Positions 21,077-40,011 of a stretch of DNA of 64,000 nt are shown in pieces; position 1 is the stretch's first letter; each line of letters opens with the position of its first letter. The notes beneath the pieces were generated by a model. The model was not told where the DNA came from. It was given only the letters and a program-made list of their open reading frames with translations, and searched no databases. Made by a program: the position numbers and the translations under genes. Where the stretch lies: the NCBI RefSeq assembly GCF_030295405.1, contig NZ_AP027080.1, forward strand, positions 2,666,001 to 2,730,000, given 5' to 3'. Source of the stretch: Mesoterricola silvestris (GTDB taxonomy: Bacteria; Acidobacteriota; Holophagae; Holophagales; Holophagaceae).

Positions 21077-21153
21077 GGCTGGGTAGCTCAGGTGGTTAGA
21101 GCGAGGGTCTCATAATCCCTAGGTCCGCGGTTCGAGTCCGCGCCCAGCCACCA
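21077..21153 (+). tRNA. tRNA-Met (elongator-like), anticodon CAT, CCA encoded
   Basis: A full cloverleaf can be drawn: acceptor GGCTGGG pairing with CCCAGCC, D-arm GCTC/GAGC, anticodon loop CTCATAA with anticodon CAT, T-arm CGCGG-TTCGAGT-CCGCG, and genomic CCA at 21151-21153. The GGC start, G-C first pair and GTAGCTCAG D-region resemble elongator tRNA-Met rather than initiator, which lacks the first pair. A tRNA-Ile2 with lysidine cannot be excluded by eye. The 3' end of this tRNA marks the left boundary of the accessory region. Confidence 0.95.
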
Positions 21154-21272: not shown

Positions 21273-21386
21273 TTTTCAGGGAGTGGCTTTTATAGCCGGT
21301 CCAAGGGGATGGATGGGCAAAGGGCCCGACCGTCCAAGCGTAAATCCGCTATCCTGAAGCACGTCCCCGCACAACCAGGAGTGGCC

Positions 21387-23369
21387 ATGACGATGCATAG
21401 CCTCCACGTGGAGGTCCAGGACGAAGCCCTTGGCAAGTTCATGGGAGCCACCCCCCTTAATGCCCTCGCGGAGCTCATCTGGAACGCCGTGGATGCGGAT
21501 GCGTCCACCGTGCGTGTCCAGTTCGAGGAGGCCGACGGGTCCGGCAGGATCAGCCGCATTCTCATCACGGACGATGGGGAAGGCATCAATGAGCAGGATC
21601 TTCAGACCGGATTCGTCAAGCTTGGGAAGTCATGGAAAAGGCTCGCCACCACCACCCGCGGGAAAGCCCGGATGCTGCATGGGGAATCCGGGCAAGGACG
21701 GTACCAATCATTTGCCCTTGGGCACCTGGTTGAATGGCGGACCAAGTTCAGGGCCATCGATGGGAAGCTGCTGAAATACAGCATCTTCGGAAAAAGGAAT
21801 TCGCCGCGGGATTTCAGCTACACCGACTTCGAACCGGCTTCCGGCAAGACCGGGACGACGCTCATCATCGATCAGATCCACTCGACCGTCAGGGGGCTCA
21901 AGAAGGATGAGGCCATCGAGAAGCTCCATAAGATTTTCGCCCTGTACCTCAGACAGTACCCTGGGGATCCGACCATCGAGGTGAATGGCCACAAATTGGA
22001 TCCCTCCAAGGTAATTCTTGGTGCCTACACCTATGACCTGCTCGTGGATGACGGCAAAGGAAACGCCACCTCGGTTCACCTGGATGTCGTGGAATGGGCA
22101 TTCAAAACGGAAAGGGAGATATTCCTTTGCAACGAGAAGGGCTTCACCCTGCACAACCACCCCACAGGGCTTCGCGGTGCAGGAGCAAATGTCACCGTCT
22201 ATGTCCGTTCTCCGTGGCTGCAGGAATTGGACCGGCTGAGACAGATTGAGTTGTATAGGTCGCATGAACTTGGTGTGGCCCTGGAAGCCGCCGTCGTAGC
22301 CAAACTACAGGAGCACCTTGAAGAGAAGTGCAAGACCGAGGACGCGGCCTTGCTTGAGCGGCTCAAGAAGGACAAGGTCTATCCCTATTCGGCCCCGCCC
22401 CAATCTGTGGGCGAGGCGCTGGAAAGACGCGTGTTCGACGAATGCGCGGTCCGCGTCCACCGCGCCTTACCCGATTTCGAAAGCAACTCCAGCAAGAGCA
22501 GGAAGCTTTCTTACAGGCTCATCAAGGAGGCGCTCAACAGCAATCCAGACGCCTTGACGACAATTCTTCGCGAGGTGCTCGGGCTCACGAAGGAACAGCA
22601 GGAAGAGTTTGCGGAACTCCTCAGCAGGACCCAGTTGTCGGCCATCATCAGCGCATCCAAGACGATCACCGACCGCCTCCATTTCCTGGACGGGCTGGAC
22701 TGCATCCTGTTCGAAAAGAGGAGCCGGAAGGGCCTAAAGGAACGGTCCCAGCTCCACAAGCTCATCGAGCGAAACACTTGGATTTTCGGGGAATCCTATT
22801 CCCTTTCGGTTTCGGACCAGCATCTGAACAGGGTCCTGGACAAACACATCCAGATGCTGGGCAGGAACCAAAGGAACCCTGACCCGGTGTTGACGGCCGA
22901 TGGGAAGAGCCCCGGAATCATTGACCTCATGGTTTCCGGCTATATCCATCACCAGGAGGACGAACTCGAGCACCTCATCATCGAACTCAAGCGACCAAAG
23001 GTCGCGATCGACAGAAAGGTCATGGAGCAGGTCGACAGGTATGCCCAAGCTGTCGCCGGGGACGAGCGATTCCACCAAGCCAAGGTCCGATGGCGCTTCC
23101 TGGCCATTTCCAACGAAATGACGGAGGACATTCGTCGTAAAGCCAAGCAGAAAGATAGGCCAAGGGGCCTGGTGGAAAACTATGACGACCTCAACGTGCA
23201 GATCTGGGCCAAGACCTGGGCCGAAATCATCGAAGAATGCCGAAGCAGAATGAGGTTCTACCAGAGCAAACTAGAATTCAAACCGGACCGGGAAAGCGCC
23301 CTGGCCTTCTTGAAAAGCCTCAGCCCGGAATACCTGCCTGCCCACCTGAGGGGGGAGGAATCGGCCTGA
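21387..23369 (+). CDS. GHKL (HATPase_c_3) ATPase with C-terminal Shedu-like PD-(D/E)XK nuclease domain, putative defence protein
   Basis: The 660-residue protein has a GHKL ATPase module at residues about 10-200: N-box AELIWNAVDADAS, G1 box ITDDGEGI and a GESGQGRYQSFALG lid motif, as in MutL/Hsp90/MORC-like proteins. A middle region of unknown fold follows. Residues about 465-620 resemble Shedu/DUF4263 nucleases: LIERNTWIFGE, then a D in PGIIDLMVSG, then LIIELKRPKVAID (the D...ExK core). This suggests an ATP-gated nuclease. ATG 21387 has AGGAG 5 bases upstream and is preferred over ATG 21309. It is the first gene after tRNA-Met and lies next to a defence cassette, so an antiphage function is likely but unproven. 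Confidence 0.75.
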   Translation: MTMHSLHVEVQDEALGKFMGATPLNALAELIWNAVDADASTVRVQFEEADGSGRISRILITDDGEGINEQDLQTGFVKLGKSWKRLATTTRGKARMLHGESGQGRYQSFALGHLVEWRTKFRAIDGKLLKYSIFGKRNSPRDFSYTDFEPASGKTGTTLIIDQIHSTVRGLKKDEAIEKLHKIFALYLRQYPGDPTIEVNGHKLDPSKVILGAYTYDLLVDDGKGNATSVHLDVVEWAFKTEREIFLCNEKGFTLHNHPTGLRGAGANVTVYVRSPWLQELDRLRQIELYRSHELGVALEAAVVAKLQEHLEEKCKTEDAALLERLKKDKVYPYSAPPQSVGEALERRVFDECAVRVHRALPDFESNSSKSRKLSYRLIKEALNSNPDALTTILREVLGLTKEQQEEFAELLSRTQLSAIISASKTITDRLHFLDGLDCILFEKRSRKGLKERSQLHKLIERNTWIFGESYSLSVSDQHLNRVLDKHIQMLGRNQRNPDPVLTADGKSPGIIDLMVSGYIHHQEDELEHLIIELKRPKVAIDRKVMEQVDRYAQAVAGDERFHQAKVRWRFLAISNEMTEDIRRKAKQKDRPRGLVENYDDLNVQIWAKTWAEIIEECRSRMRFYQSKLEFKPDRESALAFLKSLSPEYLPAHLRGEESA

Positions 23370-23537: not shown

Positions 23538-26500
23538 CTAACGGCCGGAATCGTTTTTCACCATCCCAAGAAGGTCCTCGACAAGGGCCTCCCCTCTTCC
23601 TAAATCTACCGCCCGAAGTTCGACGATAATCCAGCCGATAGCCCCTTTCTGAAGCCGTTCCCGAATGGCTCGATCCCGGCGAAGCCTATTCCCGGTATGG
23701 AAAGCGGCACCATCAACGTAGATCAGAATTTTAGAGTCCTTCACCCGAAAGTCCGCCGAGCTTATTGGTGCGCCTACGCTATCGGGGGCAACAGGGACTT
23801 GCTTCTCTACATCCAGGCCATGTTGTTGGAAGAGCCGGAGGAACTTCAGCTCGAGCGGGGAACCAACGCCCGAATCGTAGGCTTCTAACCATGGACGGGG
23901 ATCATTGGCGTCCCCAAGTTCAGGAGAAAGACGCGTGGGAGCCTCTGAGGCCAGAGCCTCGAGGTCCGGCATGATGTGCGGCCAAGATAGATGCATGTGG
24001 TGCCGCTGGTTGGCGTAGGACTTCAGACATCGGTAACAGGCTGTCTCGCAGCGGGGGTGATCCAGGTGCTCGATGGCCCTGCCGGCGATCAGGTGGAGGT
24101 CATCCGCGCATCGATCCAGGAAGCCGCTGCCACCCACGGCGGGGTCGATGAAGGTAAGCGCCCCGAGCCTCCGGACTCCGCCCTCATCCCGTTCGTCCCA
24201 CATGGGTTCCAGTTCGAACTCGATTTCCGGGCCGTCGAGCAGGTAAAGCTGCCGGAGGCCGGTTCGAAGGGCATACCCCAGGGACAGGCCCCAGCGCTTG
24301 TATTCGGGTTCTTCAAACTGTCGGGGGAGCAGGACCGTGATACGCAGTGTGGTCGCGGGAACCGCGGTGGTGATCGCGCGGGGCATTGGCGGTTGTCCCG
24401 CCAACTGGCAGCCTCTGGCGTGCTCGAATGGATCTCGATCCTCCCCGCGCCTGGGACGTCTTCGGGCGCCGTTGTTGTTCTGGGCATCCGGAACCGTGAG
24501 GTTCCTTCCACAGCTTGGGCAGAGATAGAACCCTCGAGCGGCCTCATGCAACAGGGGCTTCCCTGTGGCCCGATCGGACGCCGAAGGGGGCTTCCATTCG
24601 TTGACCCACCTGACGGTCTCCGAGAAGCGAAGCTCGGCAATCCAACCCGACACCAGGCGATACCTGGACATTACGCGGCCATCACGCTGTGGGTGGCAGG
24701 TCACGAGCGAAGCAATGGAGAACCGATCCTCTTCTTCCAGGACAGGCGTGTCCTGGCGGATCGCCAGGAATCCACCGAAGGCATGGCCGGGGTACCCGCC
24801 TCGCCCGCCATCCACCGGGTCGTCATCGCCGCAGCGGGGGCATGCCGGAGTCTGATGATCGAAGCGCAGACCGCACCGGCGGCAGCGGACATAGACCCAA
24901 TCCGGGTCCTGGGACTTGGGGTTCCATGGGGAGGACAGATCCAGCCCAACCACCTTCCAGCGGTGGCCTCGGGCATGGACCAAGGCATCTGGCTGGAATT
25001 GGGCGATGCCAAACCGCCGGGCCACGGAAAGGGGGTCTTCTTCGTGGTCGTCGCCCAGAAGACGGAGGGTGCAGGGCTCGGTGGGGAACTCATAGCCCGG
25101 GAGGATGCCGAACTCGGCGAACCTCCTCATCGGATGCCCACTGCTGCGGTCATCCGCCTCCTGCCCGTTTCTCCGGGAAGGAATCCCAAGCAGGCGTTCC
25201 TGAAGATCCCGCGCATGAACCGCACGATAGGCATGGCCGCCCAGTTCGTTCCACCGGCTCACATCCTCCTGGAGCGTCCGAATCTGGAGCGAAGTTCGAT
25301 CAAACAGGTCCTGGACCTTGGCAGGCAAGGCTTCCAAAACCTGCTCCAAGGACTCACGGGTGGCGAGTTCCGCTCCGACCAGAACGTCTTCTCCCCAGGC
25401 ATCCAGTGCGAGGCTAATGGCGTGGGGGAATTGTGCCCGAAGCGATGCAATCAAAGCATCCACCTTGGCCTGGTCAATCTGGCCCTGGAGGTTGATGTAA
25501 TCCCCCATCCGGCCCGAGAGGCCGGGATCCGCGGAGCCGAAGGCCATGGCATGCAGGTGGCGGAGCACCACGTCGCGGTTTCCCAAACCCACGCCAGGGG
25601 CTGGAACCTCCCCCGCGATCATCTCGGCGGGTTTGTCAAAGAAATACCCATCGTGGGGGGTGCTGCGCGCATACCCCAGCACGATGCCGACGCGTGTGCG
25701 TCGCCCGGCCCGACCACCACGCTGGGCGTAGTTGTCTGGGCGGGGCGGGATGTTCCTCATCACGACGGCATCTAGGCCGCCAACGTCGATGCCCATTTCC
25801 AGGGTCGGAGAACAGGCCAGAACATTGATAGTGGAACGGAGGGTGTCGCCTTCCGCCACAGGGACGCTGGGAGGTGGGGCCTTGAATCGGTCTTCCAGTT
25901 CGATGCGATCGTCCCCCGTGACCTGTGCCGTATGCTCTCCAGCCACTAGGGGTAGTATGTCCGGGTTGAGGATCCGCTGGACGTAGCGATTGCTATTGAC
26001 CTCCGCCTCAGACCACGGCTGCAGGGCGCCCTGACACTTCGGACAGGGGCTGCCATCCACCACCCAGGGCATCCGCACATTGCAGATCGAGCACCGATAC
26101 CGGTCCTCAGGGGCGACCACTTCCAGGATGACGGCATCCGCGTTCACCTGAAGCAGACTCTGCGTGCGCCTGAAGCCGTGCAGGGGATTGGCCCTGAGTG
26201 GTCGCGGTCCGTTGGGAGCCGCCAGGAAGGACAACACGCTCAATAGCCCATCAGCGGACGGCTCGACCCCACCCATGCGGTTCAGGAGATGACGATACTG
26301 CCGTTCGAGGCTCGGCCCGCGTCCACCGGCCCTGGGTCGTCGCCAGATATTGGAGAGCGTGATACCGTCCTCAACCGCGTTGCTTTCCAACCACCCGATG
26401 GGTGCGCCGTTGGCCTCACAGGCAAACCCTGCGGGGCTCTTAATACGACGTTCCCAATCAGCCGCTCCCTTGAACTCCTCGGGGCAACTGGGGTTCTGGG

Positions 26501-28868
26501 GGTGATAGCAGATCATGGGACGCGATAGTGCAGAGCGTTTTCGCATCTCCTCAAGGAGACACCGGCAAAGGAACAGGAGTTGGTGCGTGGAAATGCCCAG
26601 CGAGCGGGCGAGTTCCTCCCCCTGCTCGTGGACGTAAGACTCCAGGCGGTCATAGCGCACGCCAACCAGGCCGAGATTGAACAGCGAGGCTCGGTAGCCG
26701 GTGCTGATTGCGAGATCGTCCAGCAGGGGCGCCTCTTCCCAGGCCCTGACCTTCGCCTGAACATTGGCCGGAAGGTAGTTGGCGTTGGTGTAGCCATCAC
26801 AATTCGGGTTGTCGCCACGCTGCACGCCCAGGGCCATGAGCTGGGTCAGCATCTCTTCCAGGGTGGCCTGCTGGTTGGGACGCTGTTTCAGGACCTGCAC
26901 GATGCGCCGTCTCATGCGGTCGTAGCGGCCCGAATAGGTGATGAAGCGGGCTTGGTGGGCCGCGTCCTGGCGGCTATCTGAGAAGATGAGCAGGCGCTCC
27001 TTCCCGTCATGGCCCGGGCGGTCCTGGTTTTGGACGGCGAGCCCTTCCAGCAGCCCCTCGGAGATCACGCGCACGGCGGCGGAGGTGCCCAGTGAGACCG
27101 GGGTGATGACGTTGCGGGCCCCGGCGGTACCTCCACAGACCAGGCAACGATTCCTGGCGGGCGCAAGGGCGACACGCATGGGGTAGAGGTTTTCATCGGA
27201 TGAATAAGCCCGTGTGGCCGGGTCGAAGCTGCCCTGCATGACCGGACGATTCCGCATCTGCTGCTCGACGCCAACCAGTCCCTCGTCTTCGTCGGCCTCC
27301 AAGCGCCTGCGGTCGTAGAGCATCCATTCGTCGTCGGGCTGGCGATCCGCATTCGGTTGAAGCAATTCAGATTCAGGGCCTGCTGGCCCAGTCTTGAAAC
27401 GCAGGGTATCTGCGCCACAGGAGCGGCAGAGGTAAAGGGGTGCGGCGGCCCGGCCGCATGTACACTGCTCCTCGCCCATGGGATAGAGGCGTCCGCAGGC
27501 AGGATCAACGCATCGAGTAAACTGCCAGCCGCCGCGAATGAAGCGGTGAACGCGCAAGCGAAGAGCCCCGGGCATGCCATCCGGTAGGGCGGCTCCCACC
27601 AGAAGGGCCGCGCAGACTTCCCGTCGAATGACCTCTGGATCCGTGGAGGCGCGCTCTGGCACCTCGGCCTTGACGCGCTCCACGATCTGGGTCACCGACA
27701 TGGGCCTGCGGGCCAGCATGCTGTTCAGGAACCACAAAATTCCGGCCTCCCGTGCAAGCTGGGCAAGGGGTTCATCTGCGGGGCGCCCGGCAAGCTGGGC
27801 CAAAATGGCACGTTGCCCGGTCTCGTCCTCCAGGCGGAGGGTGAGTTCAGCGGCTGGCGCGGCCGGCCACTGAGCCTCCAGGGGGGTCAGGAGGTCGCAG
27901 ATCTGCTCACCGACCACCTTAAACCGGGCTTCCGGAATCCCAGTTAGTTTCCCGAGGAATTCGCGTACGGCCTCGTCGCGCAGGCGCTGCACTTCTTCCG
28001 CCGTACGGCCGGTCTCGTCAACACTCTTGATGGTGGCGGATGTGGCCACCGGGAGTACTTCGGGGAACCGGCGCCGATCGCTGCGATCGTCGGCCGCCCA
28101 ATCTTGACGGGCCTTGCGAAGGTGAGCCAGAAGGCGACGGAAGAGCAGCGCTATGTTGGCGCCCAGGCTGCCCCGGTAGGTGTGTACCTCGTCAAGCACC
28201 ACGAAGCGGCAGCGGTGGTTGGCGAAGAGCGCGTCTCGGTCGGCGGGCCGAACCAGCAAGTACTCCAGCATCATGTAGTTGGTCAGCAGGATGTGGGGAG
28301 GGTGCTGCCGCAGCTTTTGTCGCTCTTCGTCCTTGGTCGACCGGTCGTAGCGGGCCACCTTCACATGGGTGTGTCCCGACTCCTCCAGATACTGCCTGAT
28401 GCGCTCCTCCTGATCGTTGGCGAGCGCGTTCATAGGGTAGACCAGGATGGCGGTAAGCCCGGACTGATTGAACCGAGCGGAGTCCTCGATGGCGTTTTGG
28501 ATGACCGGCAGGAGAAAGCACTCAGTCTTGCCGGAGCCTGTGCCCGTGGTGACCACCAGGGGGCCGGCTTCCGACCCCAGCAGGTGGATGAGTGACTCAC
28601 TCTGATGCAGGTAGGCCGTGGGGCTGCCGCTGCGCTCCTCCATGACTTGGGCCAGCTTGGCGTCCAGCCCCAGATCCCGCCACTTCTCTCCGGAGCGGAA
28701 GGCGCGGTGGGCCTGGAAGAAGGGCTCCTGGGCCAAGAAGCCCGCCTCGTTCAGGGCGGCTTCAAGGGAGGCACGGAGCTGGGGGTCCCTGGCCTGGAAC
28801 TCGGTGGAGAGATAGCTGCGGTACTCCTCAAGCACTTGGTCAACGACGGTGATGGGGTTCAGCGGCAT
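23538..28868 (-). CDS. DUF1998-type DEAD/DEAH helicase with zinc ribbons and C-terminal Vsr/DUF559-like nuclease domain
   Basis: The 1776-residue protein has helicase motifs in order: Walker A TTGTGSGKTECFLLP (about residue 105), YPMNALANDQ, LLTNYMMLEYLL, DEVH box VVLDEVHTYRG, VATSATI, and after a long Cys-rich insertion the motif V/VI region SPTLEMGIDVGGLDAV and YAQRGGRAGRR. At least five CxxC pairs (for example CSICN...CPKC, CRRCG...CPRC) look like zinc ribbons. A DUF1998-like region ends with CETACYRCLKSYANQ near residue 1610. The last 110 residues (SADFRVKDSKILIYVDGAAF, then RAIRERLQKG and WIIVEL) resemble Vsr/DUF559 nucleases. The domain order recalls DruE, DrmA-DrmB or Hma helicases. 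It is the last gene of the cassette, 114 bases after the methyltransferase. Confidence 0.85.
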   Translation of the reverse strand: MPLNPITVVDQVLEEYRSYLSTEFQARDPQLRASLEAALNEAGFLAQEPFFQAHRAFRSGEKWRDLGLDAKLAQVMEERSGSPTAYLHQSESLIHLLGSEAGPLVVTTGTGSGKTECFLLPVIQNAIEDSARFNQSGLTAILVYPMNALANDQEERIRQYLEESGHTHVKVARYDRSTKDEERQKLRQHPPHILLTNYMMLEYLLVRPADRDALFANHRCRFVVLDEVHTYRGSLGANIALLFRRLLAHLRKARQDWAADDRSDRRRFPEVLPVATSATIKSVDETGRTAEEVQRLRDEAVREFLGKLTGIPEARFKVVGEQICDLLTPLEAQWPAAPAAELTLRLEDETGQRAILAQLAGRPADEPLAQLAREAGILWFLNSMLARRPMSVTQIVERVKAEVPERASTDPEVIRREVCAALLVGAALPDGMPGALRLRVHRFIRGGWQFTRCVDPACGRLYPMGEEQCTCGRAAAPLYLCRSCGADTLRFKTGPAGPESELLQPNADRQPDDEWMLYDRRRLEADEDEGLVGVEQQMRNRPVMQGSFDPATRAYSSDENLYPMRVALAPARNRCLVCGGTAGARNVITPVSLGTSAAVRVISEGLLEGLAVQNQDRPGHDGKERLLIFSDSRQDAAHQARFITYSGRYDRMRRRIVQVLKQRPNQQATLEEMLTQLMALGVQRGDNPNCDGYTNANYLPANVQAKVRAWEEAPLLDDLAISTGYRASLFNLGLVGVRYDRLESYVHEQGEELARSLGISTHQLLFLCRCLLEEMRKRSALSRPMICYHPQNPSCPEEFKGAADWERRIKSPAGFACEANGAPIGWLESNAVEDGITLSNIWRRPRAGGRGPSLERQYRHLLNRMGGVEPSADGLLSVLSFLAAPNGPRPLRANPLHGFRRTQSLLQVNADAVILEVVAPEDRYRCSICNVRMPWVVDGSPCPKCQGALQPWSEAEVNSNRYVQRILNPDILPLVAGEHTAQVTGDDRIELEDRFKAPPPSVPVAEGDTLRSTINVLACSPTLEMGIDVGGLDAVVMRNIPPRPDNYAQRGGRAGRRTRVGIVLGYARSTPHDGYFFDKPAEMIAGEVPAPGVGLGNRDVVLRHLHAMAFGSADPGLSGRMGDYINLQGQIDQAKVDALIASLRAQFPHAISLALDAWGEDVLVGAELATRESLEQVLEALPAKVQDLFDRTSLQIRTLQEDVSRWNELGGHAYRAVHARDLQERLLGIPSRRNGQEADDRSSGHPMRRFAEFGILPGYEFPTEPCTLRLLGDDHEEDPLSVARRFGIAQFQPDALVHARGHRWKVVGLDLSSPWNPKSQDPDWVYVRCRRCGLRFDHQTPACPRCGDDDPVDGGRGGYPGHAFGGFLAIRQDTPVLEEEDRFSIASLVTCHPQRDGRVMSRYRLVSGWIAELRFSETVRWVNEWKPPSASDRATGKPLLHEAARGFYLCPSCGRNLTVPDAQNNNGARRRPRRGEDRDPFEHARGCQLAGQPPMPRAITTAVPATTLRITVLLPRQFEEPEYKRWGLSLGYALRTGLRQLYLLDGPEIEFELEPMWDERDEGGVRRLGALTFIDPAVGGSGFLDRCADDLHLIAGRAIEHLDHPRCETACYRCLKSYANQRHHMHLSWPHIMPDLEALASEAPTRLSPELGDANDPRPWLEAYDSGVGSPLELKFLRLFQQHGLDVEKQVPVAPDSVGAPISSADFRVKDSKILIYVDGAAFHTGNRLRRDRAIRERLQKGAIGWIIVELRAVDLGRGEALVEDLLGMVKNDSGR

Positions 28869-28982
28869 GTCGGCTCCGGATGGCTTAGGCCAGTGGGCTC
28901 AGATGGGGAGATTCATCCTACATGTTTCCAGAAATAATCGTGATTTCAATGAATAGACAGTGATTGACCAATCCAAAGCACC

Positions 28983-31900
28983 TCAATCTTCGCCCCGCCG
29001 CCGGTAACGCATGCCCCGGCGCTCGCCTTCAGTCTCGGCCAGGCCTTCGTCCACCAGGCGCCGAAGAAAGGGGCGGAGGCTGGCGGCGTCCAGCCCCGTG
29101 GCTTCTTGGGCCTCGCCGGAAGAGATACGCCCCCGCTCCTGAAGCAGGGTCTTGAGGGTTTCGTAGACCTGATCGTTCTCGGTGCGGGGCCTGCGCGGCA
29201 GCATCTGGAGGGGAGCAGGCCTAGAGGAAGGAATGGGCGCTGATTTGCCCTGGAGGCTGGCAAACATGGGGCCGAAGTCCTCCGTGGCCGACGTATCCTG
29301 GTCGGAGATGGGCAAGTCGATCACCGGCTGTGGCAGCCCTTCGTTGAGAGGAATGTCCCAGTATGGGTCGTGCTTCTTGGTAAATGCCTCCAGGCCCAAG
29401 GCCTTCAGCTCATCGAAGGCGGCGAGGCAAAGCTCCGGAGCTTTCTGGTAGCTCCGGTGGCTGAAGGCAGAGAGGACATGGGCGTACTGATCGCGGTCAA
29501 GGCCGTAGGCCTCGGCCACCACAGCATCGATGGCGGCGCGCACCTCCCAACGGGCCTCTTCGGTTTCCATAACTGGCCACATGTGCATGGGTTTGGTCTC
29601 GCGCCAAACCTCATCCACCTGTTCTAACCAAAGCGAATAAAAGCCTGCATGAGCACAGGAGAGCCTTAGTGCGGAATGAGCAAGTAAAATACGCGCATTA
29701 TTTTGTAATAGTGGCAGAGGAGTGGATAATAGTAAAAATTTAGTAACATGACCTGAAGCTCTAAAGCGTATAAGCCAATCAAAACAAAAGGAATTCATAA
29801 TTGCAAGTGAGCTTAGAGCCATTACTGATGTTCTTGCCCATGGTTTTTCATCTACAGGTGCTGTATGCCCTGTCATGCTACCTGGCGGTAGCATTGCAGA
29901 AATAACAGTTCTTTCATTTGTTGAACTTGCAACTTCTCTATAGGCAAGACGATAGTATCTCCCAGCCTGTATATAATTTGGCTTATCTTTAAGATCATCA
30001 ATTGAAACAAGGTACCGTAGTCTTTGACCCCACGAAATGTCATATTGTTCAAAAAATTTACCTTCAAATACAAGAAATAAACCATGGCGAACAACTTCCT
30101 TTGTGCCTTCGTATGAACGCGGCTCATATTTTGTTACACCAGATGACGTTCTAAACAAATGAGCGTCATGGCTTAGGTGCAATTCAGTCATGCGAAATGA
30201 AAGGCCGCTTTCAATAAACTTTTTAAAAGTATTTAAACAGCCTTCATATATTCCCCTTGCCACCCGAACATCTTCTTTAGAACGAAGCTCTGGGAAATTC
30301 AGGTACTCTCCACCGGTCTTTTGTAAAAATTCGGGTGTATACAATAATCTATCCAAATCTTGAAACAATCGTTGAAGTTCGTGCCAATAAAATCCACATT
30401 CAAAATTATAAATATTTAAATGCATATTCCTTGCAACAACAGCAGCAAATTTAAAGCTAGAATGGATATCAAACAGCTTTTTCTTATTTTCAAATGAAAA
30501 ACAGCTACGCAGTTCCATTTTTTCGATGTACAGCTGGCGAACACCTGTAGCACCAGCACTTCCATGAAAAGCTGAAGGAACCACAACTCCCGTCATTCCA
30601 TTGTCTTTCAACAATTGAGCATTGCGTTCCATAAAAACACGAAAAGCGTCCAATTGTCGCCCAGCAAGGTCCCCATCGATTATAATTTTTTGAAATTTAA
30701 ACAATTTGTCATTGGATCTTTTACTTTGTTCGAATTTCTCCTGCCCAGCAAAGAAAGTTGTTGCTATTGAAACATTTGCGAGCAGCCGTCTCTCTATAAC
30801 AGTTCTCTCACTCTTGGTGGGAGCTTCCATGATTGATAAGTCGAAGGATGCCAAAAATTCTTTCGACTTAAATTGGATTGCGTCCCAAGGCGGGTTCCCA
30901 AGGACTGCGTCGAACCCGCGACGCAAACCGTCGCCCAAATGGAAAACCTCGGGGAATGCGAATTCAAACGGCACCCCTTCGCTGCCCGTCAATACCATCT
31001 CTCGCAACCGAGGCTGCAGAGCCATCACACCCTCAGTGGCTCCGGAGTTTGCAATGGCCGAGGCTAACGCGAGGTAGGCCGCGTCATCACAGGCCTCGCC
31101 CAGCATCACCCCCCCACTCCACGCAGCGGCCAGCAGCTTCATAGGCTTAAGGGCGGCATCCAGCTTCTCCTTGGCCACCCGCTTCTGCTCCAGGTCCGCC
31201 GCGTCCTTGCCAACGCTGGCTTCCAGGTCGCGCACATGGGTAACGGCGCTGGCGAGAGTGGCCCGGAGCTGCTCCGTGAGGCCCTGAGTGTAGAGATCGT
31301 CAAGCTTGTTCCCGCTCCCCGGATAGGTAAGCAGGTGCTCGAAGAAGGGCCCGGTGAGGGAATCTCCGCACAGCAGGCGGTGGTCCATGAAGGTGAGGGG
31401 CAGGCCTTCGGCGTAGCTCTCTAACCACAGGGAGAGCTTGGCCAGTTCAACCGCGAGGGGGTTCTTGTCCACGCCGTATAAGCAATGCACGGCCACCAGG
31501 CGACGGCAGAGGGCCTCGGCCTTCTTCTGTGACAGGCCGCTGTCCTCGCCCTCTGGCACGCGGCTGGGCAGGTAGGCCACCAATTCGTCCTCGGGATCGG
31601 GCAGGCCTTCCACCCGCTTGCGCAGTTCCGCCGCACGGGCCAGGAGGGCCGCTTGCTCCGAATCCTTCACCTTCTCGGTCTGTTCCTCCGCCTGCACTGC
31701 CAGTTCGTCGCAGAGGCGACAGGCTTCGTACAGGGCCTCGCCCAGGTAGCGGCATGCCTCCACCAGGAAGTGGCCGCTACCCATGGCGGGGTCGATGACC
31801 TTCAACTCCAGGATCCTCCCCGGCTGAGGGTCCTCCTTGGGGCTACGCTCCAGAAGCTGGGGTCCCAGGGTTTCCTGAACCAAGAATCTGACGAACGGGT

Positions 31901-33461
31901 GCGGGGTGTAGTAACTGCCAGTGGCCTTGCGGCCCAGACCTACCCGCAAGAAGAAACATTTCGCGGAAATATCCTCGATGAAGATTACCTGGGTCCCTCC
32001 AGCGGAAGCGCGGCGACGGAGAGCCTCAGCCTCCTCGGCATCCTCGCCCCCACCGTCATCCTCGCCGCCCTCGTCCTCGTCGGTCTCCCCGACGGTACCC
32101 CCACTTGCGGCGCTGGCGCGGTAGGGAGCGCCCTGGGCGGCGGGCACGACCACCTCCAGTTTGGCCCGACGCAGGCGGCACATGGGCTCGGTGGAGATTC
32201 CGGGCTCCAGTTCTAGCAGGGCCTCGTAGACGCGGCCCAGGTCTTCCACGTCCAGCGCGCCGTAGTGCACGCGCTCCCGCTCAGCCCGACCCTCCACCGG
32301 CGTCCACAGCAGGGAGTCCAGGAGGCGGGCCACGGCCCGTTCGCCCCACCCCAGTCGGTCCAGGAGCGGAGTGGCGCCCTCGCCGAAAAGCATACCGCCC
32401 AGAGCCTTGATCTCCAGTTCGCTGGAACTCATACCCTCGGCGAACATCCGCCACAGGGTGCGAAGCGCCCCTTCCAGGAATTCGCCGCTGTCGGCGCCAT
32501 CATCCATGACCTTCCGGACGATGTCCGCCAGTGCGGTATTGGGGGAATAAGTGCGCCGCCAGAGGCTCGTGGCGGCGAAGCTGAAGGCCCGCGCCGGATC
32601 CGCCGAGGATTCCAGCTTGAACACGAATAGAAGCCGATAAACCAGGATCAAGCCCTCGCGCCAGAGCTGGCGGGCCAAGCCCTCGGAAGTGCCCGCCTCG
32701 CGGAGGGCACTCTGGTTCGCCGGATGATCGAGGACTTCCTGGAGGAAACCCTCGATGGCCGCTCGCGCTTGGAGCCGCAGTTTCTTGGTGACTTGGCTCT
32801 GGGCCAATCGTGCGGCATCGGCTAGGTCTGGCAGGGCGGCCACGCCGCCGGGCGAGGCCATGGCACGGATGAGCCTGTAGGAATCGGGAACATTCCGGGC
32901 AGAGCGCCACCCGCCCGAGCGCCCAAGATCCACGGCGATGTGGCTGTCGGGACGCGCTGGGTCGCAAATCAGGAGACGCAGTTCCTCACCATCCGTGAGC
33001 AGGCCTGCCCGCTCACCACTGGCAAGGAGCACCCGCTGAGCGACCCGTGACGCACTGAAGCGGTACGCCCGCCCCCGGCGGTTCGGTGCATCCAGGTCCG
33101 TGCCCAGGGCAGCGGCCCAGACCCGCAACTTCTTGCCCTCAGGTGTCAGGAACAGGCTCCCGCCATCCTCAGCGCCTTCGCGGGTTATCACCGACCCCTG
33201 GGGCACGAGGGTGACGTAGCCGAGTTGGGAAGCCAGGGGCTCCAGCACATGACTGAATACGCGCCGGTCCCCGCCGTGCTCACCCAGGTCGCGCAGCTTC
33301 CGGCGGAACACCTCCCAGGCCTGCTGGAGGGCGCGCCCCTCGTCGCCCACATTGCGGGGGAGGAGGCGGAGGTCGTTAAGCTTCCCTTCCAGGTTGTTGA
33401 GGACGAAGGGCTCGGGGAGGGCCGGTCCGAAGAAGGTGCAATCGCGAAGGCTGAGTGCCAT
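28983..33461 (-). CDS. Very large class I adenine-specific DNA methyltransferase (PglX/DrmMI-like) with C-terminal winged helix
   Basis: The 1492-residue protein contains SAM-binding motif I DPAMGSGHFLVEA (about residue 555) and the catalytic NPPW of N6-adenine methylases (GFDAVLGNPPWDAIQ, about residue 855). Between them lie YGVDKNPLAVELAKLSLWL and a long helical insert. The region after NPPW is the expected target-recognition part. The last 65 residues form a predicted winged helix (QVYETLKTLLQERGRISSGE, then LRPFLRRLVDEGLAETE). It is translated from an ATG with AAGGAGG upstream that nearly abuts the helicase stop. In DISARM or BREX such enzymes mark self DNA. Bases 29630-30890 are strikingly AT-rich (see findings) but the frame is intact. 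Confidence 0.87.
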   Translation of the reverse strand: MALSLRDCTFFGPALPEPFVLNNLEGKLNDLRLLPRNVGDEGRALQQAWEVFRRKLRDLGEHGGDRRVFSHVLEPLASQLGYVTLVPQGSVITREGAEDGGSLFLTPEGKKLRVWAAALGTDLDAPNRRGRAYRFSASRVAQRVLLASGERAGLLTDGEELRLLICDPARPDSHIAVDLGRSGGWRSARNVPDSYRLIRAMASPGGVAALPDLADAARLAQSQVTKKLRLQARAAIEGFLQEVLDHPANQSALREAGTSEGLARQLWREGLILVYRLLFVFKLESSADPARAFSFAATSLWRRTYSPNTALADIVRKVMDDGADSGEFLEGALRTLWRMFAEGMSSSELEIKALGGMLFGEGATPLLDRLGWGERAVARLLDSLLWTPVEGRAERERVHYGALDVEDLGRVYEALLELEPGISTEPMCRLRRAKLEVVVPAAQGAPYRASAASGGTVGETDEDEGGEDDGGGEDAEEAEALRRRASAGGTQVIFIEDISAKCFFLRVGLGRKATGSYYTPHPFVRFLVQETLGPQLLERSPKEDPQPGRILELKVIDPAMGSGHFLVEACRYLGEALYEACRLCDELAVQAEEQTEKVKDSEQAALLARAAELRKRVEGLPDPEDELVAYLPSRVPEGEDSGLSQKKAEALCRRLVAVHCLYGVDKNPLAVELAKLSLWLESYAEGLPLTFMDHRLLCGDSLTGPFFEHLLTYPGSGNKLDDLYTQGLTEQLRATLASAVTHVRDLEASVGKDAADLEQKRVAKEKLDAALKPMKLLAAAWSGGVMLGEACDDAAYLALASAIANSGATEGVMALQPRLREMVLTGSEGVPFEFAFPEVFHLGDGLRRGFDAVLGNPPWDAIQFKSKEFLASFDLSIMEAPTKSERTVIERRLLANVSIATTFFAGQEKFEQSKRSNDKLFKFQKIIIDGDLAGRQLDAFRVFMERNAQLLKDNGMTGVVVPSAFHGSAGATGVRQLYIEKMELRSCFSFENKKKLFDIHSSFKFAAVVARNMHLNIYNFECGFYWHELQRLFQDLDRLLYTPEFLQKTGGEYLNFPELRSKEDVRVARGIYEGCLNTFKKFIESGLSFRMTELHLSHDAHLFRTSSGVTKYEPRSYEGTKEVVRHGLFLVFEGKFFEQYDISWGQRLRYLVSIDDLKDKPNYIQAGRYYRLAYREVASSTNERTVISAMLPPGSMTGHTAPVDEKPWARTSVMALSSLAIMNSFCFDWLIRFRASGHVTKFLLLSTPLPLLQNNARILLAHSALRLSCAHAGFYSLWLEQVDEVWRETKPMHMWPVMETEEARWEVRAAIDAVVAEAYGLDRDQYAHVLSAFSHRSYQKAPELCLAAFDELKALGLEAFTKKHDPYWDIPLNEGLPQPVIDLPISDQDTSATEDFGPMFASLQGKSAPIPSSRPAPLQMLPRRPRTENDQVYETLKTLLQERGRISSGEAQEATGLDAASLRPFLRRLVDEGLAETEGERRGMRYRRRGED
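29630..30890. other. AT-rich block within the methyltransferase gene
   Basis: This stretch is full of A/T runs (for example around 29690-29770 and 30330-30500), while the gene on both sides is GC-rich like the rest of the cassette. It starts just after the NPPW codons and ends about 215 codons before the stop, covering residues about 857-1277. That is the target-recognition zone of PglX-like methylases. The reading frame stays open throughout. Confidence 0.7.
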
Positions 33462-33462
33462 A

Positions 33463-36400
33463 TCACCGCCCTCCTTCTGACAGGGGAAGCAGCATCAACA
33501 GTCCCAGGGGAATAGGAGCAAGGGTGCGGGCCTTGCGGTGGGCGGCGAGATCCTTCTCGCGCATGCGGAACAGCCGGAGGATGCCATCCGCTTCGCGGCG
33601 GGCCGCGACCGGGTTCTTGCCATCCGTGGCGTAGGCAGCGAGCCTTTCCAGCGGCGCGGCCTGAGTCGCCCAGCGGGGCAGTTCGACCGCCTCCTCGAAG
33701 AGGCCAGGCTGGGCTTGCTGAACCGGACCACAGATGGCCTCCACCCGAGTGCGCAGCCACTTCTCCACTTCCTCGTACTCGTCCTCGCACAGTCGGGCAT
33801 GTTCTGAATACCAAGGCTCGGCGATACCCTCGAAGGCAGCTTTGGAGGCATCCAGCGCCTGACGGGACCATGCCTCGCCCCAGGCCGTGAAATGGCGGTC
33901 CCAAAGGTCCTTGGGGGAGATGGCCTTCCCACCATCCAGCAGCTTGAGCCACTGGTCAGGGTGGTCGAACACGGTGCAACGACCATCTTGCTCCACCTTG
34001 ACTCCCAGCACGCGCTCGAACTCGTGGCCACGCGGACTCTCAATGGCACCCAGGTACGTGCACAGGAGCGCTGGATGGTCCACAGAGGCAGCGAGGGCGC
34101 TGACCCGCCGGTCGAGCCAGACACCCGCCTCGCCGAAGCGGATGTTGCGCACCCGGGACAGGGCACGCCGTACGACGGGATGGGCACGCCCCAGGAAGCC
34201 AAGCTTGCGCTCCCGTTCATCCTGGTTTCGGGTGTGGTCCTCGGTCAGGAGTAGGGTCGGGCCGCTGGCATCGTAGCCGGGGAGATCCTTCAACCCGTGA
34301 TCCCAGGAGGGCGGAAGCCGGAGTTCGATCACGCCATTCGCCCCTCGCTGTATGGCACCCGCCTGAGCATCCGCCTCCAAGGCCGCACACACAAACTTGA
34401 GCAAGTCCACGTCACTGAGGCTGGCGCCTTCCTGGCGAGCTAGTTCGGCATCGGCCACGAGCCGCGCCTCGGCATTCAACCCGGCATCCCCCAGCCAGGC
34501 ATGGGACTTGGCATTCTTCTCGAAGCCCGTCATCGCCCGTTCCACTTCGGAGAGCAGTTCCTGGTACGCGGGGGTGGTTGTGTCCTCAGGCTCCTCTTCG
34601 ACCAAGCGGATCTCACGCGGGGCGACCTTGAAGAGGCAGTTCTCTTCCTCGGCCAAGCCCTCCAGGAGGCGCACAGTCTGGGCGTCATCCGTGGTCAGGC
34701 CGCCGAGAGTGTTGGGAACAAAGGTCAGCCTCAGCCGCTGGCGTTCGTACTTTGCTACCAGGCGCATCAGCAGGCGTTCTTCGAAGGACCCCGCCAGATA
34801 TAGGTACCGGACCATAGGGATTTCCTTCTGCCCGTATCGGTCAATGCGCCCATTGCGCTGCTCCAGTCGGTTGGGATTGTAGGGAAGCTCTACGTGCAGG
34901 AGGTGGTGACAGCGGGCGTGGAGGTTCAAGCCTTCGGAAGTGGCGTCGGTGCTGACAAGAACAATCCCGTCGTGGGTCTTGAAGCGTTCCGTGACGGCCG
35001 TGCGGGTGGCTTCGGAATCGCTGCCGCTGATGGCCAGGACTTCGCCCTGGAGGTCGCCCTGGCTGAGAGCTTCCCGCAGGTAGGCAAGGACCGCGTCCTG
35101 GCTGTCGGTGTACTCGGTGTAGACCAAGAGGTTGGCCTTCGCCTTGTCCATTCGGATGGCTTTGACTTCGCGCAACAGCGCGCCCAGCTTGGGGTCTTCC
35201 GCGAGCGCCTCCTGGGCCATGGCGATGAGCACATCCAGGGCATCCCGCGTCGTCTGGATCCGCTTCCCCTGTTCGCGCAGCCGGCGCTGCGTGCGCTGGA
35301 TTTCCTCGATCTTCCCGGCGAATTCCTCCAGCCCATAGTCGAGCAGATCCGCCGCCATGTCTTCGGCCTCAAGGAAGGCCTGATCCTGCTCCTCTTCGAA
35401 GGACAGGGCACCGAACCGTTCCAGGCGCTTCCGGTACTCGCTCAGGGTCTTGAGCCGCTGTCGGCGGGACTCAGCTTCCGCCTCGCCACTGGATGCCATC
35501 TCCGTGTACCGGTCGCGGATCCTGGTGAGGGTTTGGAGGCAGGCGGCGGTGGTGGAGACAGACCGTTTGAGGAGCGAGAGAAAGGCCAGGACTTCGCCGT
35601 ATTTCTGTCGACGCACGGCCTGTTTGAGGCGCGGGGCGATGGCCGCAATCAGGGCCTGCTGGAAAGCTGCGAACTGGGGGTGAGAGTCCGGCGCGAAGGT
35701 AACGGCGCAGGGGAAGACCTGACGGTCCTTAAATAGAGGTTCGCCCGTTTCCGGGTCCTTGATGTGCTGCTTCAGGCGGCGTACCACGTGCTGTCGGTAG
35801 CGCTCTCCGCGTAACCCGCCACGGCCATCCACCAGGCTTGGATCCAGCAGTTCCACGACCGAGGCGAAGTGGGCGTCATAACCGTCATGCGGTGTGGCGG
35901 TGAGAAGAAGGAGGCCATCAGTCTGCCTGGCCAGGACTTCAGCAAGCCGCCGCCGTTGGGAGTCCTCTGAATCCGCCCCACTGCCAAGGCTGACGCAGTG
36001 GTGGGCCTCGTCAATGACCACCAGGTCCCACACGGTGCGCTCAAGTTCCTGGAGCACTTTCTCCTGCTTGGCGAAATCGATGGATGTCAGGCAGTAGGAA
36101 ACGTGATCGAAGGGGTTGGCGCCCAGAACCAGGGAACGGCGCCTCTCCTGAAGCTCACCCGAACTGGTTATCGTTTCGAACCGCAGGCCGAAGCGGTCCC
36201 GCATCTCTGTGCGCCACTGCTCCAGCAGGGGACCTGCTGGTGAGACGACCAGGATGCGGTGGGCGCGGCGGCGAGCTATGAGTTCGGCCATAACCAGGCC
36301 AGCCTGCACAGTCTTGCCAAGACCCACGCCATCCGCCAGGAGAAGCCTGGGCCGGCTCATACGAATCGCCCGCATCACGGGAACGAGTTGGTAGGGAGCG

Positions 36401-36702
36401 ATGTCGAGGCGGCCTGGTTGCACTGCCAGGAGGGCGGATGGGCCGAGAGCCTGTTCCAGCAGGAAGGCCTCGTGATAGAGCCGCCATTGCGCCAATCGAC
36501 CTGCCCGACGTGGGTCCAGCTCCGTGACCACCGGGGTCACGGATTCGAATGGATGGAGAAGGTCGATTTCGATCCCTCGCAAATCCCCGTCCACGCAACG
36601 AAGGCGATATCGATGTTGGCCCCCGGCAGGCTCAGAGTGAAGGACTTCCCAGGAGAGGCCACGTGCATGAACCTGAGTACCTGGGAGAATTGTACCGAGC
36701 AT
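33463..36702 (-). CDS. SNF2/DEAH helicase, DISARM DrmD-like
   Basis: From the ATG at 36702 (GGAG 9 bases upstream) the protein is 1079 residues and begins MLGTILPGTQVHARG. In-frame upstream starts exist at 36717 (ATG) and 36744 (TTG). Helicase motifs: Walker A LLADGVGLGKTVQAGLV near residue 130, DEAH in LVVIDEAHHCV near residue 230, LLLLTATPHDGYD, and the C-terminal lobe with LVSTDATSEGLNLHARC and RLEQRNGRIDRYGQ near residue 640. The architecture, with a long coiled middle region and an extended C-terminal domain, matches DrmD, the SNF2-like helicase of class 1 DISARM. It is the first gene of the three-gene cassette and its stop lies 1 base from the methyltransferase start. Confidence 0.87.
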   Translation of the reverse strand: MLGTILPGTQVHARGLSWEVLHSEPAGGQHRYRLRCVDGDLRGIEIDLLHPFESVTPVVTELDPRRAGRLAQWRLYHEAFLLEQALGPSALLAVQPGRLDIAPYQLVPVMRAIRMSRPRLLLADGVGLGKTVQAGLVMAELIARRRAHRILVVSPAGPLLEQWRTEMRDRFGLRFETITSSGELQERRRSLVLGANPFDHVSYCLTSIDFAKQEKVLQELERTVWDLVVIDEAHHCVSLGSGADSEDSQRRRLAEVLARQTDGLLLLTATPHDGYDAHFASVVELLDPSLVDGRGGLRGERYRQHVVRRLKQHIKDPETGEPLFKDRQVFPCAVTFAPDSHPQFAAFQQALIAAIAPRLKQAVRRQKYGEVLAFLSLLKRSVSTTAACLQTLTRIRDRYTEMASSGEAEAESRRQRLKTLSEYRKRLERFGALSFEEEQDQAFLEAEDMAADLLDYGLEEFAGKIEEIQRTQRRLREQGKRIQTTRDALDVLIAMAQEALAEDPKLGALLREVKAIRMDKAKANLLVYTEYTDSQDAVLAYLREALSQGDLQGEVLAISGSDSEATRTAVTERFKTHDGIVLVSTDATSEGLNLHARCHHLLHVELPYNPNRLEQRNGRIDRYGQKEIPMVRYLYLAGSFEERLLMRLVAKYERQRLRLTFVPNTLGGLTTDDAQTVRLLEGLAEEENCLFKVAPREIRLVEEEPEDTTTPAYQELLSEVERAMTGFEKNAKSHAWLGDAGLNAEARLVADAELARQEGASLSDVDLLKFVCAALEADAQAGAIQRGANGVIELRLPPSWDHGLKDLPGYDASGPTLLLTEDHTRNQDERERKLGFLGRAHPVVRRALSRVRNIRFGEAGVWLDRRVSALAASVDHPALLCTYLGAIESPRGHEFERVLGVKVEQDGRCTVFDHPDQWLKLLDGGKAISPKDLWDRHFTAWGEAWSRQALDASKAAFEGIAEPWYSEHARLCEDEYEEVEKWLRTRVEAICGPVQQAQPGLFEEAVELPRWATQAAPLERLAAYATDGKNPVAARREADGILRLFRMREKDLAAHRKARTLAPIPLGLLMLLPLSEGGR

Positions 36703-36888
36703 AAATATCGACTCCATCCTCGCAATAGACTTCAGTTCCAGCAACCACGTGCTGTTGTTATCGTCAGTTCAAGCTGGGCTCAAACAGCTTAACACTCTGC
36801 CGTCACCAGCCCGAGTTGGCCCCATCCACAGTTGTGACCATCGGCAGTCAGGGTAAGGGTGGCGAGATTCGATCCCTTCTATCTTTGT

Positions 36889-37003: not shown

Positions 37004-37046
37004 GTTACTTAAATTGAGTGGTATAGTAGTAAACATGAGGCGCTCC

Positions 37047-38345
37047 ATGGCTGACGTCGACTTGACCTCCCCCCAGACCAGGCTCTCCCTTGCCATCAGG
37101 AATGCCCCCTATTGGCTGCGCCTGGAAAGAGGGCTTCACCTCGGCTATCTCCGCGGCAAGCGGGGCGGATCCTGGCTCGTGAGGAGGCAGGACCAGTCCC
37201 TTGAGCAGCCCCGGCTCCAGGTGAGGATCGGCATCGCTGATGACTCCCATCCCAGCGACGGGCTCAAGATTCTCTCCTTTGCCCAAGCCAAGGATGTCGC
37301 GCTGGCGAAGTTCCCTGTTATGACCACCCGGGAGAAGGCCACCAGCATGTGGGTGACGCAGCATTCCATGGTCCGCCACGCGGTGACCAACTACCTCGGC
37401 TGGATGGAGGAGCACCGCGCCAGGTCGTGCGAAAGGTCCTCCCAGATGGCGCGCCAGTATATTCTCCATGAACCCATCGCCGAAATCCCGATCGTGTCCC
37501 TGACCAAGGACGCCATCATCCAGTGGCATCTGGACATTGCCAACCACCTCAAAGGCTCCCGCTCGAAGAAGGAACCATCCGTCAAGCGCCGGATTCCCCT
37601 GGATGCTACGGATGAAACGAAGCGGATCAAGGAGGCCAGGAAGTCGACCGCGAACCGGGTTCTGGGCTTCCTCAAAGCGGCATTGAATTATGAAAACAAG
37701 CTGACGGGAGGTCCCATTGCCAATCCCGCCATCTGGAGTGAAGTCCATTCTTTCAAGGATGCTGGCGTGGACGTGGCCCGTGCCCTTACCCTCGGAGAGC
37801 AGAAACGGTTGGTGGAGGCCTGCGACCCCAGCCTTGGACGCCTGGTGCAGGGAGCGCTTTTGACGGGCCTGCGCTTCTCGGAACTGGCAGGGCTCCGACG
37901 GCGCATGGTAATTGAAGGGATGAGCCGGCTTGGCCTCCCTCCCACCAAGGGGGATTCACGGAAGCGGGTCAAGCGTCACCTCATCGAGGAAGCAAAAATC
38001 TTCCTTGAGCAACAGATCAAGGACCTCGGGTCGGACGACTTCGTATTCAAGAAGGCCGATGGTGAGCCCTGGAAGAAGAACGATTACGTCCGCCCGCTCC
38101 AGGCTGCCCTGAAGGCAGCCAGCCTGGGTCACCTGCGGTTCCACGACCTCCGCCATTGCTTTGCGACGACGATGCTCCAAAACCGCATTGAGCCGCTTCT
38201 TGTCGCCAAGGCCCTTGGCCACGCGGACCTGAGGATGCTTAATGAGCACTATGAACATCTTATGGACGATTACATGGACGATGCCTACAAGCGCGGTTCG
38301 GCCTGGATCGGCTTGACGGGCCCCCGCCCCAGGCGCCGAAGGTAA
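37047..38345 (+). CDS. Tyrosine recombinase/integrase
   Basis: The product is 432 residues from ATG 37047 (GAGG 6 bases upstream; ATG 37035 and TTG 37014 are alternatives). The catalytic domain shows the full set: first Arg in LLTGLRFSELAGLRRR (about residue 285), HDLRH near residue 370, LGHADLRMLNEHYEHL with the second His and nucleophilic Tyr near residue 405. The N-terminal half contains an arm/core-binding region (EKATSMWVTQHSMVRHAVTN). Such enzymes integrate and excise islands, often at tRNA genes. The nearest tRNA (tRNA-Met, 21077) is 16 kb to the left. The gene is divergent from the defence cassette. Confidence 0.93.
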   Translation: MADVDLTSPQTRLSLAIRNAPYWLRLERGLHLGYLRGKRGGSWLVRRQDQSLEQPRLQVRIGIADDSHPSDGLKILSFAQAKDVALAKFPVMTTREKATSMWVTQHSMVRHAVTNYLGWMEEHRARSCERSSQMARQYILHEPIAEIPIVSLTKDAIIQWHLDIANHLKGSRSKKEPSVKRRIPLDATDETKRIKEARKSTANRVLGFLKAALNYENKLTGGPIANPAIWSEVHSFKDAGVDVARALTLGEQKRLVEACDPSLGRLVQGALLTGLRFSELAGLRRRMVIEGMSRLGLPPTKGDSRKRVKRHLIEEAKIFLEQQIKDLGSDDFVFKKADGEPWKKNDYVRPLQAALKAASLGHLRFHDLRHCFATTMLQNRIEPLLVAKALGHADLRMLNEHYEHLMDDYMDDAYKRGSAWIGLTGPRPRRRR

Positions 38346-38689: not shown

Positions 38690-38816
38690 AGATCCCGGCC
38701 GGAAACGCTTCTCGCGCGTGCCCGGGGCCGCCCTCCGCCATGGCAGATGGACTTAATTCTCTCGACTTGAGCGGCGGCCGGGAATGGCCATCCGCCACAT
38801 TCTTCTGGAGGTCTGC

Positions 38817-40007
38817 ATGCCCCCAATCACCGACAAACAAGCGGGAACTTGCTCCGCCCAAATCGCCGGGAAGAGCGCCGGAAGGCGCGACCCGAAGACG
38901 GAGGCCTGGCTTTCCTGTGCCGGTTTCATAGCCCGAGAGTGCAACCTTCGGTCTGTCTCCAGCGCCGTGCTGGCCGCGGCTCTGGATGCGGTGGGCCTCC
39001 TGGCCGACGCGGGCCTGGAAGCCCCTTCCCTTCCTCCCCACTGGTACCTTGCCTTCATGGAAGTGGGGTCGCGGTGGTCGGCCGGGCCGCGCACAGCCAT
39101 GAAGGGCCTGGAGCCGGCCGAAAACCTACCTCCTGGCCTCTTCGACCTCATGGGCCGGGCCCACGCCCTTGGTTCGTGCGTCCTGGAGTTTCTGCGCGCC
39201 CAGGACCCTGTCTGGGTCCCGCTCTTTTGGCCCGAATCGGCCAAGGGAGAGGATCCCGATGCTCCCCGCAAGCGGCTCCAGCGGGCCGGGGAATTCGCCG
39301 CCAGGGTGGAACGCAAGCTCCTGGCGTCCTTGGTGGGTCAGACCGAGGCGGTGGACGCCCTGAAGAAGCTCGCCTTCCAGGTGGCCCTCAGGAAAGGGCC
39401 CTCCGGGCCGCCTCCACTGGCGCTTTTCCTGGGCCCTCCCGGGGTCGGGAAGTCCATGGCGGGGGAACTCTTTGGGCAGGCGCTGGCTGAGTGGCAAGGG
39501 GAGGAGGAGCCGTCCTTGATCAGGATTGATCTGACTCAGTACACGCAATGGAGCAGCGGCTCGGACCTCTGGGGAGGCTCGGGCCGGTATGGGTCCGTCC
39601 CTCCCAGGGTCCAGTCTCATCCCCGGTCCGTCCTCCTGGTAGAGGAACTGGAGAAAGCCCACGTCAAATGCCTTGAAAGTTTCCTCCCAATCCTGGGCAC
39701 CGGAAAATTGGAAAGGGAAACCGGCAAGCCTGTAGATTTTTCCGGGACGGTATTCATCTTCACTTCGAACCTCGGTTCTGAACTCTGGGGCCGGCGGGAA
39801 GCTGCGGAAACGGGGCCCTTCTCGATGGACCTCAGCGATCTGATGGGGTTGCACGGCACCAGCGGCGAGCGTTCCGATTGGATGAAGGCAGCCATCCCCC
39901 GGGAGCTTTTGAGCCGCCTGGCGCAGGGGCACCTCGTCCTCTTCCACGCCCACGAAGGGCACCACCACCTGGATCTCATCGACCGCTTCGCAAGAAAGGA
40001 GGACTGA
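38817..40007 (+). CDS. ClpB/ClpA-like single-module AAA+ ATPase
   Basis: The 396-residue protein has an N-terminal region with no recognised domain (residues 1-175) and one AAA_2 module: LVGQTEAVDALKKLA, Walker A LFLGPPGVGKSMAGEL near residue 205, a Walker B-like SVLLVEELEKAHVKCLESFL with Glu-Glu, and sensor-1 FIFTSNLG. It then continues with GTSGERSDWMKAAIPRELLSRLAQGHLVLFH, matching the ClpB D2 region, but lacks a full C-terminal D2-small domain. ATG 38817 has GGAGG 5 bases upstream. It precedes the FtsH-like protein by 4 bases, so the two should function together. Confidence 0.75.
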   Translation: MPPITDKQAGTCSAQIAGKSAGRRDPKTEAWLSCAGFIARECNLRSVSSAVLAAALDAVGLLADAGLEAPSLPPHWYLAFMEVGSRWSAGPRTAMKGLEPAENLPPGLFDLMGRAHALGSCVLEFLRAQDPVWVPLFWPESAKGEDPDAPRKRLQRAGEFAARVERKLLASLVGQTEAVDALKKLAFQVALRKGPSGPPPLALFLGPPGVGKSMAGELFGQALAEWQGEEEPSLIRIDLTQYTQWSSGSDLWGGSGRYGSVPPRVQSHPRSVLLVEELEKAHVKCLESFLPILGTGKLERETGKPVDFSGTVFIFTSNLGSELWGRREAAETGPFSMDLSDLMGLHGTSGERSDWMKAAIPRELLSRLAQGHLVLFHAHEGHHHLDLIDRFARKED

Positions 40008-40011
40008 AACC

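Follow-up and report, generated by a model that had tools for sequence, protein, structure and literature searches.

An ARMADA-like operon with a PglX-type methylase

The 64,000-nucleotide stretch of Mesoterricola silvestris DNA analysed here (contig NZ_AP027080.1, positions 2,666,001 to 2,730,000; hereafter the window) carries an operon of three minus-strand genes. The central one (28983-33461) encodes a 1492-residue PglX/DrmMI-like adenine-N6 DNA methyltransferase, and its frame is open from end to end, as the first-pass annotation had stated. Profile searches returned DrmMI, Type IIG and PglX-like matches (PADLOC DrmMI, 2.5e-85; Pfam Eco57I and N6_Mtase). Its upstream partner is a BrxHII/RapA-like SNF2 helicase, also ArmA/DrmD-like (33463-36744; PADLOC DrmD 2.6e-109, BrxHII 4.1e-73; NCBIfam RapA 1.3e-53), which is 82% identical to its counterpart in the nearest relative of the same family, a Holophagaceae MAG (G051, Acidobacteriota). 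Downstream lies a 1776-residue YprA/DruE-like SF2 helicase with an MZB/DUF1998 region, which is ArmC-like (23538-28868; DruE 1.1e-117; MZB 8.2e-07). The C-terminal tail of this helicase is conserved and resembles Vsr/MTES_1575; its restriction endonuclease matches are weak and under cut-off. The helicase-methylase-helicase trio occurs in the same order in Cyanobacteriota, Myxococcota, Planctomycetota, Chloroflexota and others; several further loci lack a part of it because they are truncated at contig or locus ends.

In the ARMADA anti-phage system, ArmA is a BrxHII-like helicase, ArmB a PglX-like methylase and ArmC a YprA-like helicase that bears a Vsr-type PD-(D/E)xK nuclease at its C-terminus (Bell et al. 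2025 preprint, PMC12458937). The NPPW motif of ArmB is required for defence, and the A-B-C order is found in many archaeal and cyanobacterial Type I ARMADA systems and in Type II (PMC12458937). The window locus shows these features: an SNF2 helicase of BrxHII type, a PglX-like methylase that has both a GxG and an NPPW motif, and a DUF1998/MZB YprA-like helicase closest to DruE, in a conserved A-B-C operon. Because the three products match ArmA, ArmB and ArmC, we assign the operon, from sequence resemblance, to the ARMADA type and its methylase to the ArmB-like proteins; the three Arm names are used here by resemblance. The locus differs from Type II ARMADA in that no ArmD gene (GajB-like helicase with a RelE-like domain) adjoins the ArmC-like gene. 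The next gene (21309-23369) encodes a GHKL ATPase on the opposite strand, so that the locus is at most Type I-like.

Two other system names were considered and rejected. With class 1 DISARM, the locus shares a pair formed by a DrmD-like helicase and a DrmMI-like methylase. However, the DrmD score (401) stays below the cut-off of 610, neither DrmB nor DrmC was matched among the scanned neighbours, and a separate DrmA is lacking, the DrmA matches being cross-hits on both helicases. With BREX PglX/BrxX, the methylase shares a common methyltransferase-TRD (target-recognition domain) architecture (PDB 8q56, 8c45, 9ewz), but sequence identity is about 16%, the NCBIfam BREX PglX score is 41.6 bits against a cut-off of 500, and BREX genes are absent among the scanned neighbours. 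Of the earlier description of a PglX/DrmMI-type methylase, the PglX type stands; for the operon as a whole, ARMADA is the name that fits by resemblance, and those of DISARM and BREX do not.

A sharp AT-rich block begins directly after motif IV

The first-pass annotation had reported an AT-rich block at 29630-30890 within this GC-rich gene, starting just after the NPPW motif. A two-changepoint segmentation of GC3 places the block at residues 861-1280 (29622-30881, minus strand), with a GC3 of 0.286 inside and 0.785 outside. This model gains 161 in log-likelihood, whereas none of 200 codon shuffles gains more than 8.0, which bears out the early description. GC1 and GC2 also drop, from 0.73 and 0.47 outside to 0.48 and 0.39 in the block, and the block codons are of AT type (TTT, AAT, TTA, AGA, AAA). 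At its minimum, the block has 38.5% GC per 1200 bp, below all of the 3780 sampled windows of the same size (mean 68.0%, sd 5.0, minimum 44.1%), which come from 20 sampled stretches of this genome that total 400 kb. These windows were used in place of a ranking of genome ORFs by GC3 dip, which is uninformative because stop-to-stop and shadow ORFs dip as well.

Both edges coincide with conserved motifs. The left edge falls within residues 857-886, an interval that takes in the end of the catalytic motif IV NPPW (residues 856-859; 30885-30896), which is invariant in 30 homologues and marks the left junction. The right edge falls within residues 1275-1286 (29604-29639), inside the conserved stretch ALRLxCNHxGYxxLWxEQ, in agreement with the codon alignment. 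Upstream of the block, residues 1-860 (30882-33461; GC3 0.79) comprise the N-terminal region and the motif I-to-IV half of the methyltransferase domain, and show 76% identity to homologues from Holophagaceae and deltaproteobacteria. They contain the SAM-binding motif I, DPAMGSGHF (residues 557-565; 31767-31793), which is invariant or almost so in the family alignments. Downstream, the GC-rich C-terminal segment (residues 1281-1400; 29262-29621) is conserved; its residues 1290-1385 share 78-80% identity with the relatives of the flanks. It is followed by a winged-helix-like tail (residues 1406-1490; 28992-29246) whose HTH matches are under cut-off. This tail resembles the ends of proteins of about 200 residues in many Holophagaceae; the window methylase and one homologue (L043) carry it as a fusion, and a Pseudanabaena plasmid homologue lacks it.

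Structure prediction extends the content of the block beyond a recognition domain. The AlphaFold2 model of residues 490-1395 (pLDDT 78.9) matches PglX, CamA, M.BseCI and M.TaqI, with PglX scoring highest (Z 20.9, 477 residues aligned at about 16% identity). The model of residues 1005-1290 (pLDDT 85) matches the same four enzymes and also an S subunit of Type I. From the matches of both models, the block is predicted to consist of the half of the catalytic domain that follows motif IV and of the whole TRD. Its left part (residues 861-1010; 30432-30881) is the remainder of the catalytic domain and carries the tail of the Pfam Eco57I match; a conserved island within it (residues 955-1010) also has low GC4. 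Its right part (about residues 1011-1280; 29622-30431) is the TRD. The proposal that this region holds the TRD thus stands, and is to be widened by the catalytic half past NPPW.

The block and its flanks have different relatives

A contig scan for homologues with the single sequence found none, and a three-sequence alignment query retrieved 53 loci, with methylase relatives in about ten phyla. In the tree of the flanks, the window methylase groups with L043, L048 and L037 (support 99), which are Holophagaceae, deltaproteobacterial and Cyanobium genes. This four-member group is rejected by the block data (lnL loss 156, p-AU 6e-62). In the block tree, whose branches are long, the window block joins a Phycisphaerales gene (support 97). 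A forced pair of the window and L043 is not rejected by the block data (p-AU 0.13), and a claim that these two are not sisters is not significant.

Pairwise identities in the family alignment lead to the same separation. Identity in the N flank correlates with identity in the C flank (r=0.49), whereas TRD identity correlates at 0.27 with the N flank and 0.08 with the C flank. In contrast, the TRD and the conserved in-block island correlate at 0.77, which argues that the block travels as a unit. The first-pass annotation had suggested aligning homologues to see whether only this block differs, and close pairs indeed combine near-identical flanks with unrelated TRDs: L044 and L069 are 0.91 identical in the N part, 0.23 in the TRD and 0.77 in the C part, the window and L048 0.76, 0.18 and 0.80, and L061 and L071 0.86 in the N part and 0.21 in the TRD. 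Along the window gene, the nearest relatives switch from L043, L065 and L070 before the block to L051, L065, L044 and L050 inside it, and to L048, L055 and L043 after it. The residues that follow NPPWD in the window, AIQFKSKE, are identical in L044 in the codon alignment. The nearest relatives also change within the block; this mosaic interior makes more than one exchange event likely. Overall, exchange of the recognition segment is well supported by these comparisons between homologues, which stand independently of base composition.

Neither plasmids nor phages, viral contigs or 396 genomes of Acidobacteriota yielded a close donor of the block: identity to it peaks at about 40%, and phages and viral contigs gave no match. 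Phase variation, by inversion or from silent cassettes, was considered and rejected, since positions 28400-34000 showed no inverted repeat and the block occurs just once in the genome.

A GC offset recurs in the recognition segments of adenine methylases

Low GC at the position of the block is not particular to the window. Block GC3 is below flank GC3 in 33/37 homologues (mean -0.16, p 3e-8), and at fourfold sites the block is below its flanks in 33/35 (mean -0.18). The homologues that show the offset belong to hosts of 38 to 73% GC, AT-rich hosts included, and the offset averaged by phylum or clade is negative in 10/10. As a control, the partner helicase was measured at 30 loci of this set, where its deepest dip averages -0.05 and the largest is -0.09. 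The first-pass annotation had named the same AT-rich block in distant homologues as a finding that would refute a horizontally acquired recognition domain. Distant homologues do carry an AT-shifted block at this place, which goes part of the way to such a finding; AT-richness alone is hence no signature of one recent import, and AT composition by itself is weak evidence for fresh import; the part of that reading that stands is the separate history of the block, seen in the rejected flank group, the identities and the switches of relatives at the edges.

The offset extends to other families. It was observed in 23/25 other TRD-bearing adenine methylases (mean -0.21), a set of MmeI, PglX and other IIG-like proteins, mostly from Acidobacteriota, picked by homology and not by GC. 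In HsdM subunits, which share the catalytic fold without a TRD, the dip is only -0.04; a direct comparison of TRD methylases with HsdM, made on rounded values, gives p 0.0007 in the TRD region and p 0.025 in the region of motifs IV-VIII. A dip just as sharp was seen in a BREX PglX of an Acidobacteriota genome (L131), with a GC4 of 0.89 before NPP, 0.41 and 0.36 after it, and 0.87 in the C-terminal part.

An unlikely explanation is a single recent import of the whole block from an AT-rich donor, for instance a cyanobacterium or a member of Chloroflexota or Bacteroidota, whose composition it would have kept. The low GC and AT-type codons of the block fit such an event, and an AT-rich cyanobacterial plasmid homologue exists. 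However, the block relatives are scattered and not notably AT-rich (block GC3 of 0.73 in L044 and 0.48 in L038), the top identity is about 40%, and across homologues block GC4 follows flank GC4 with a slope of 0.91 and an intercept of -0.11. Block composition therefore tracks that of the host at a constant offset, unlike what random donors would give.

Absence of any exchange, with a native block evolving fast under arms-race selection and drifting towards AT under relaxed codon selection, is improbable and already disfavoured. In its favour, TRDs are expected to diverge fast, the AT lean is found at the same place in distant homologues, and the window-L043 pair is not rejected by the block data. 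Nevertheless, conserved and variable columns of the block are alike 0.17 lower, whereas variable columns of the N part are just 0.025 under conserved ones. The offset is hence not due to variability, because conserved block columns are shifted equally. A native block would also have to accommodate the rejection of the four-member flank group and TRD versions of about 20% identity within genes whose flanks are 76-91% identical.

There is also a slim chance that AT-richness is no trace of mobility but a constraint imposed by the function or expression of this segment, for instance through the pacing of translation where two domains meet or through a DNA property that promotes recombination. Recurrence of the offset in independent methylase families and in hosts of 38 to 73% GC, and its start right past motif IV in several of them, would agree with a constraint. 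On the other hand, four well-aligned blocks (L076, L080, L064, L068) show almost no offset, and its size ranges from 0 to -0.6 and differs even between the close relatives L061 and L071. Finally, an assembly chimera or sequencing artefact, which the abrupt change within a single gene might evoke, is extremely improbable, as the genome is a single 4.99-Mb contig, the frame is intact, the family motifs are in register across both junctions and independent genomes share the architecture.

A probable exchange of a specificity cassette

Cassette exchange in an ARMADA-type methylase, with the AT-richness of the window block as an extreme case of a recurrent GC offset of TRD segments, is the explanation we consider probable, with good confidence. 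By homology, the ArmB-like methylase would mark host DNA and supply the recognition of the system. Residues of about 861-1280, from just past NPPW to the end of the TRD, behave as a cassette with its own history; the phylogenies show that this cassette was swapped for another version while the N-terminal catalytic and C-terminal parts were kept in the lineage. The simplest route would be homologous recombination between conserved anchors, with GNPPWD at the left edge and ALRLxCNHxGYxxLWxEQ at the right edge. The swap would be expected to give the methylase a new recognition motif, and with it a changed DNA specificity, while the rest of the system stays as it was. In BREX, the PglX TRD determines the methylated and targeted motif (PMC11341690).

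Mobile DNA is commonly AT-richer than its host. The AT-richness of the cassettes probably arises because they move more often and are acquired more recently than the remainder of the gene, and keep this lean.

TRD exchange and domain movement are known from the HsdS proteins of Type I and the Mod proteins of Type III systems, where a recognition segment is likewise swapped between conserved flanks and methylation specificity changes (PMC3077401, PMC3983042). Here, in contrast, the unit takes in the catalytic half past motif IV, has relatives across phyla and is marked by a GC offset. The ARMADA preprint (PMC12458937) does not discuss whether the recognition part of ArmB is exchanged. TRD exchange itself is thus already described; we found no description of a directional GC offset of TRD segments in the open-access literature, and as far as found this offset is apparently undescribed.

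The window methylase is a clear example, with both joints mapped closely, of an exchanged recognition segment in a defence system that was described only recently. Tentatively, and with slightly less than even confidence, we propose that the TRD-bearing halves of adenine methylases past motif IV are as a rule separately mobile and carry a downward GC offset that stays constant whatever the phylum or the GC of the host, that the dip is a general, alignment-free mark of them, and that motif IV is an exchange joint shared by unrelated families. The case also points to a rule that can be measured: in any genome, a drop of synonymous-site GC past motif IV could reveal where exchangeable specificity cassettes lie, and the frequency of target change in defence systems would become open to study. 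The same rule cautions against taking such dips as single recent imports.

Neighbourhood of the operon

The GHKL ATPase gene, convergent with the ArmC-like gene, encodes a relative of BbrUII/HgiDII-type restriction proteins and of MutL. Beyond it, a tRNA-Met gene (21077-21153) adjoins the defence genes where GC falls from some 70% to 57%; the genome has no further copy of the 3' end of this tRNA gene, and hence no attachment repeat was found. On the other side of the operon lies a tyrosine recombinase gene (37014-38345; Phage_integrase), which suggests that the island is or was mobile. Next to this integrase, an AAA ATPase and an FtsH-like AAA protease (38784-42111) form a pair with IetA-like matches, possibly further defence genes. 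Farther along, direct repeats about 73% alike and spaced by 1320 nt (46382-48491) are found within the gene of a 1006-residue DUF4382/DUF5666 protein.
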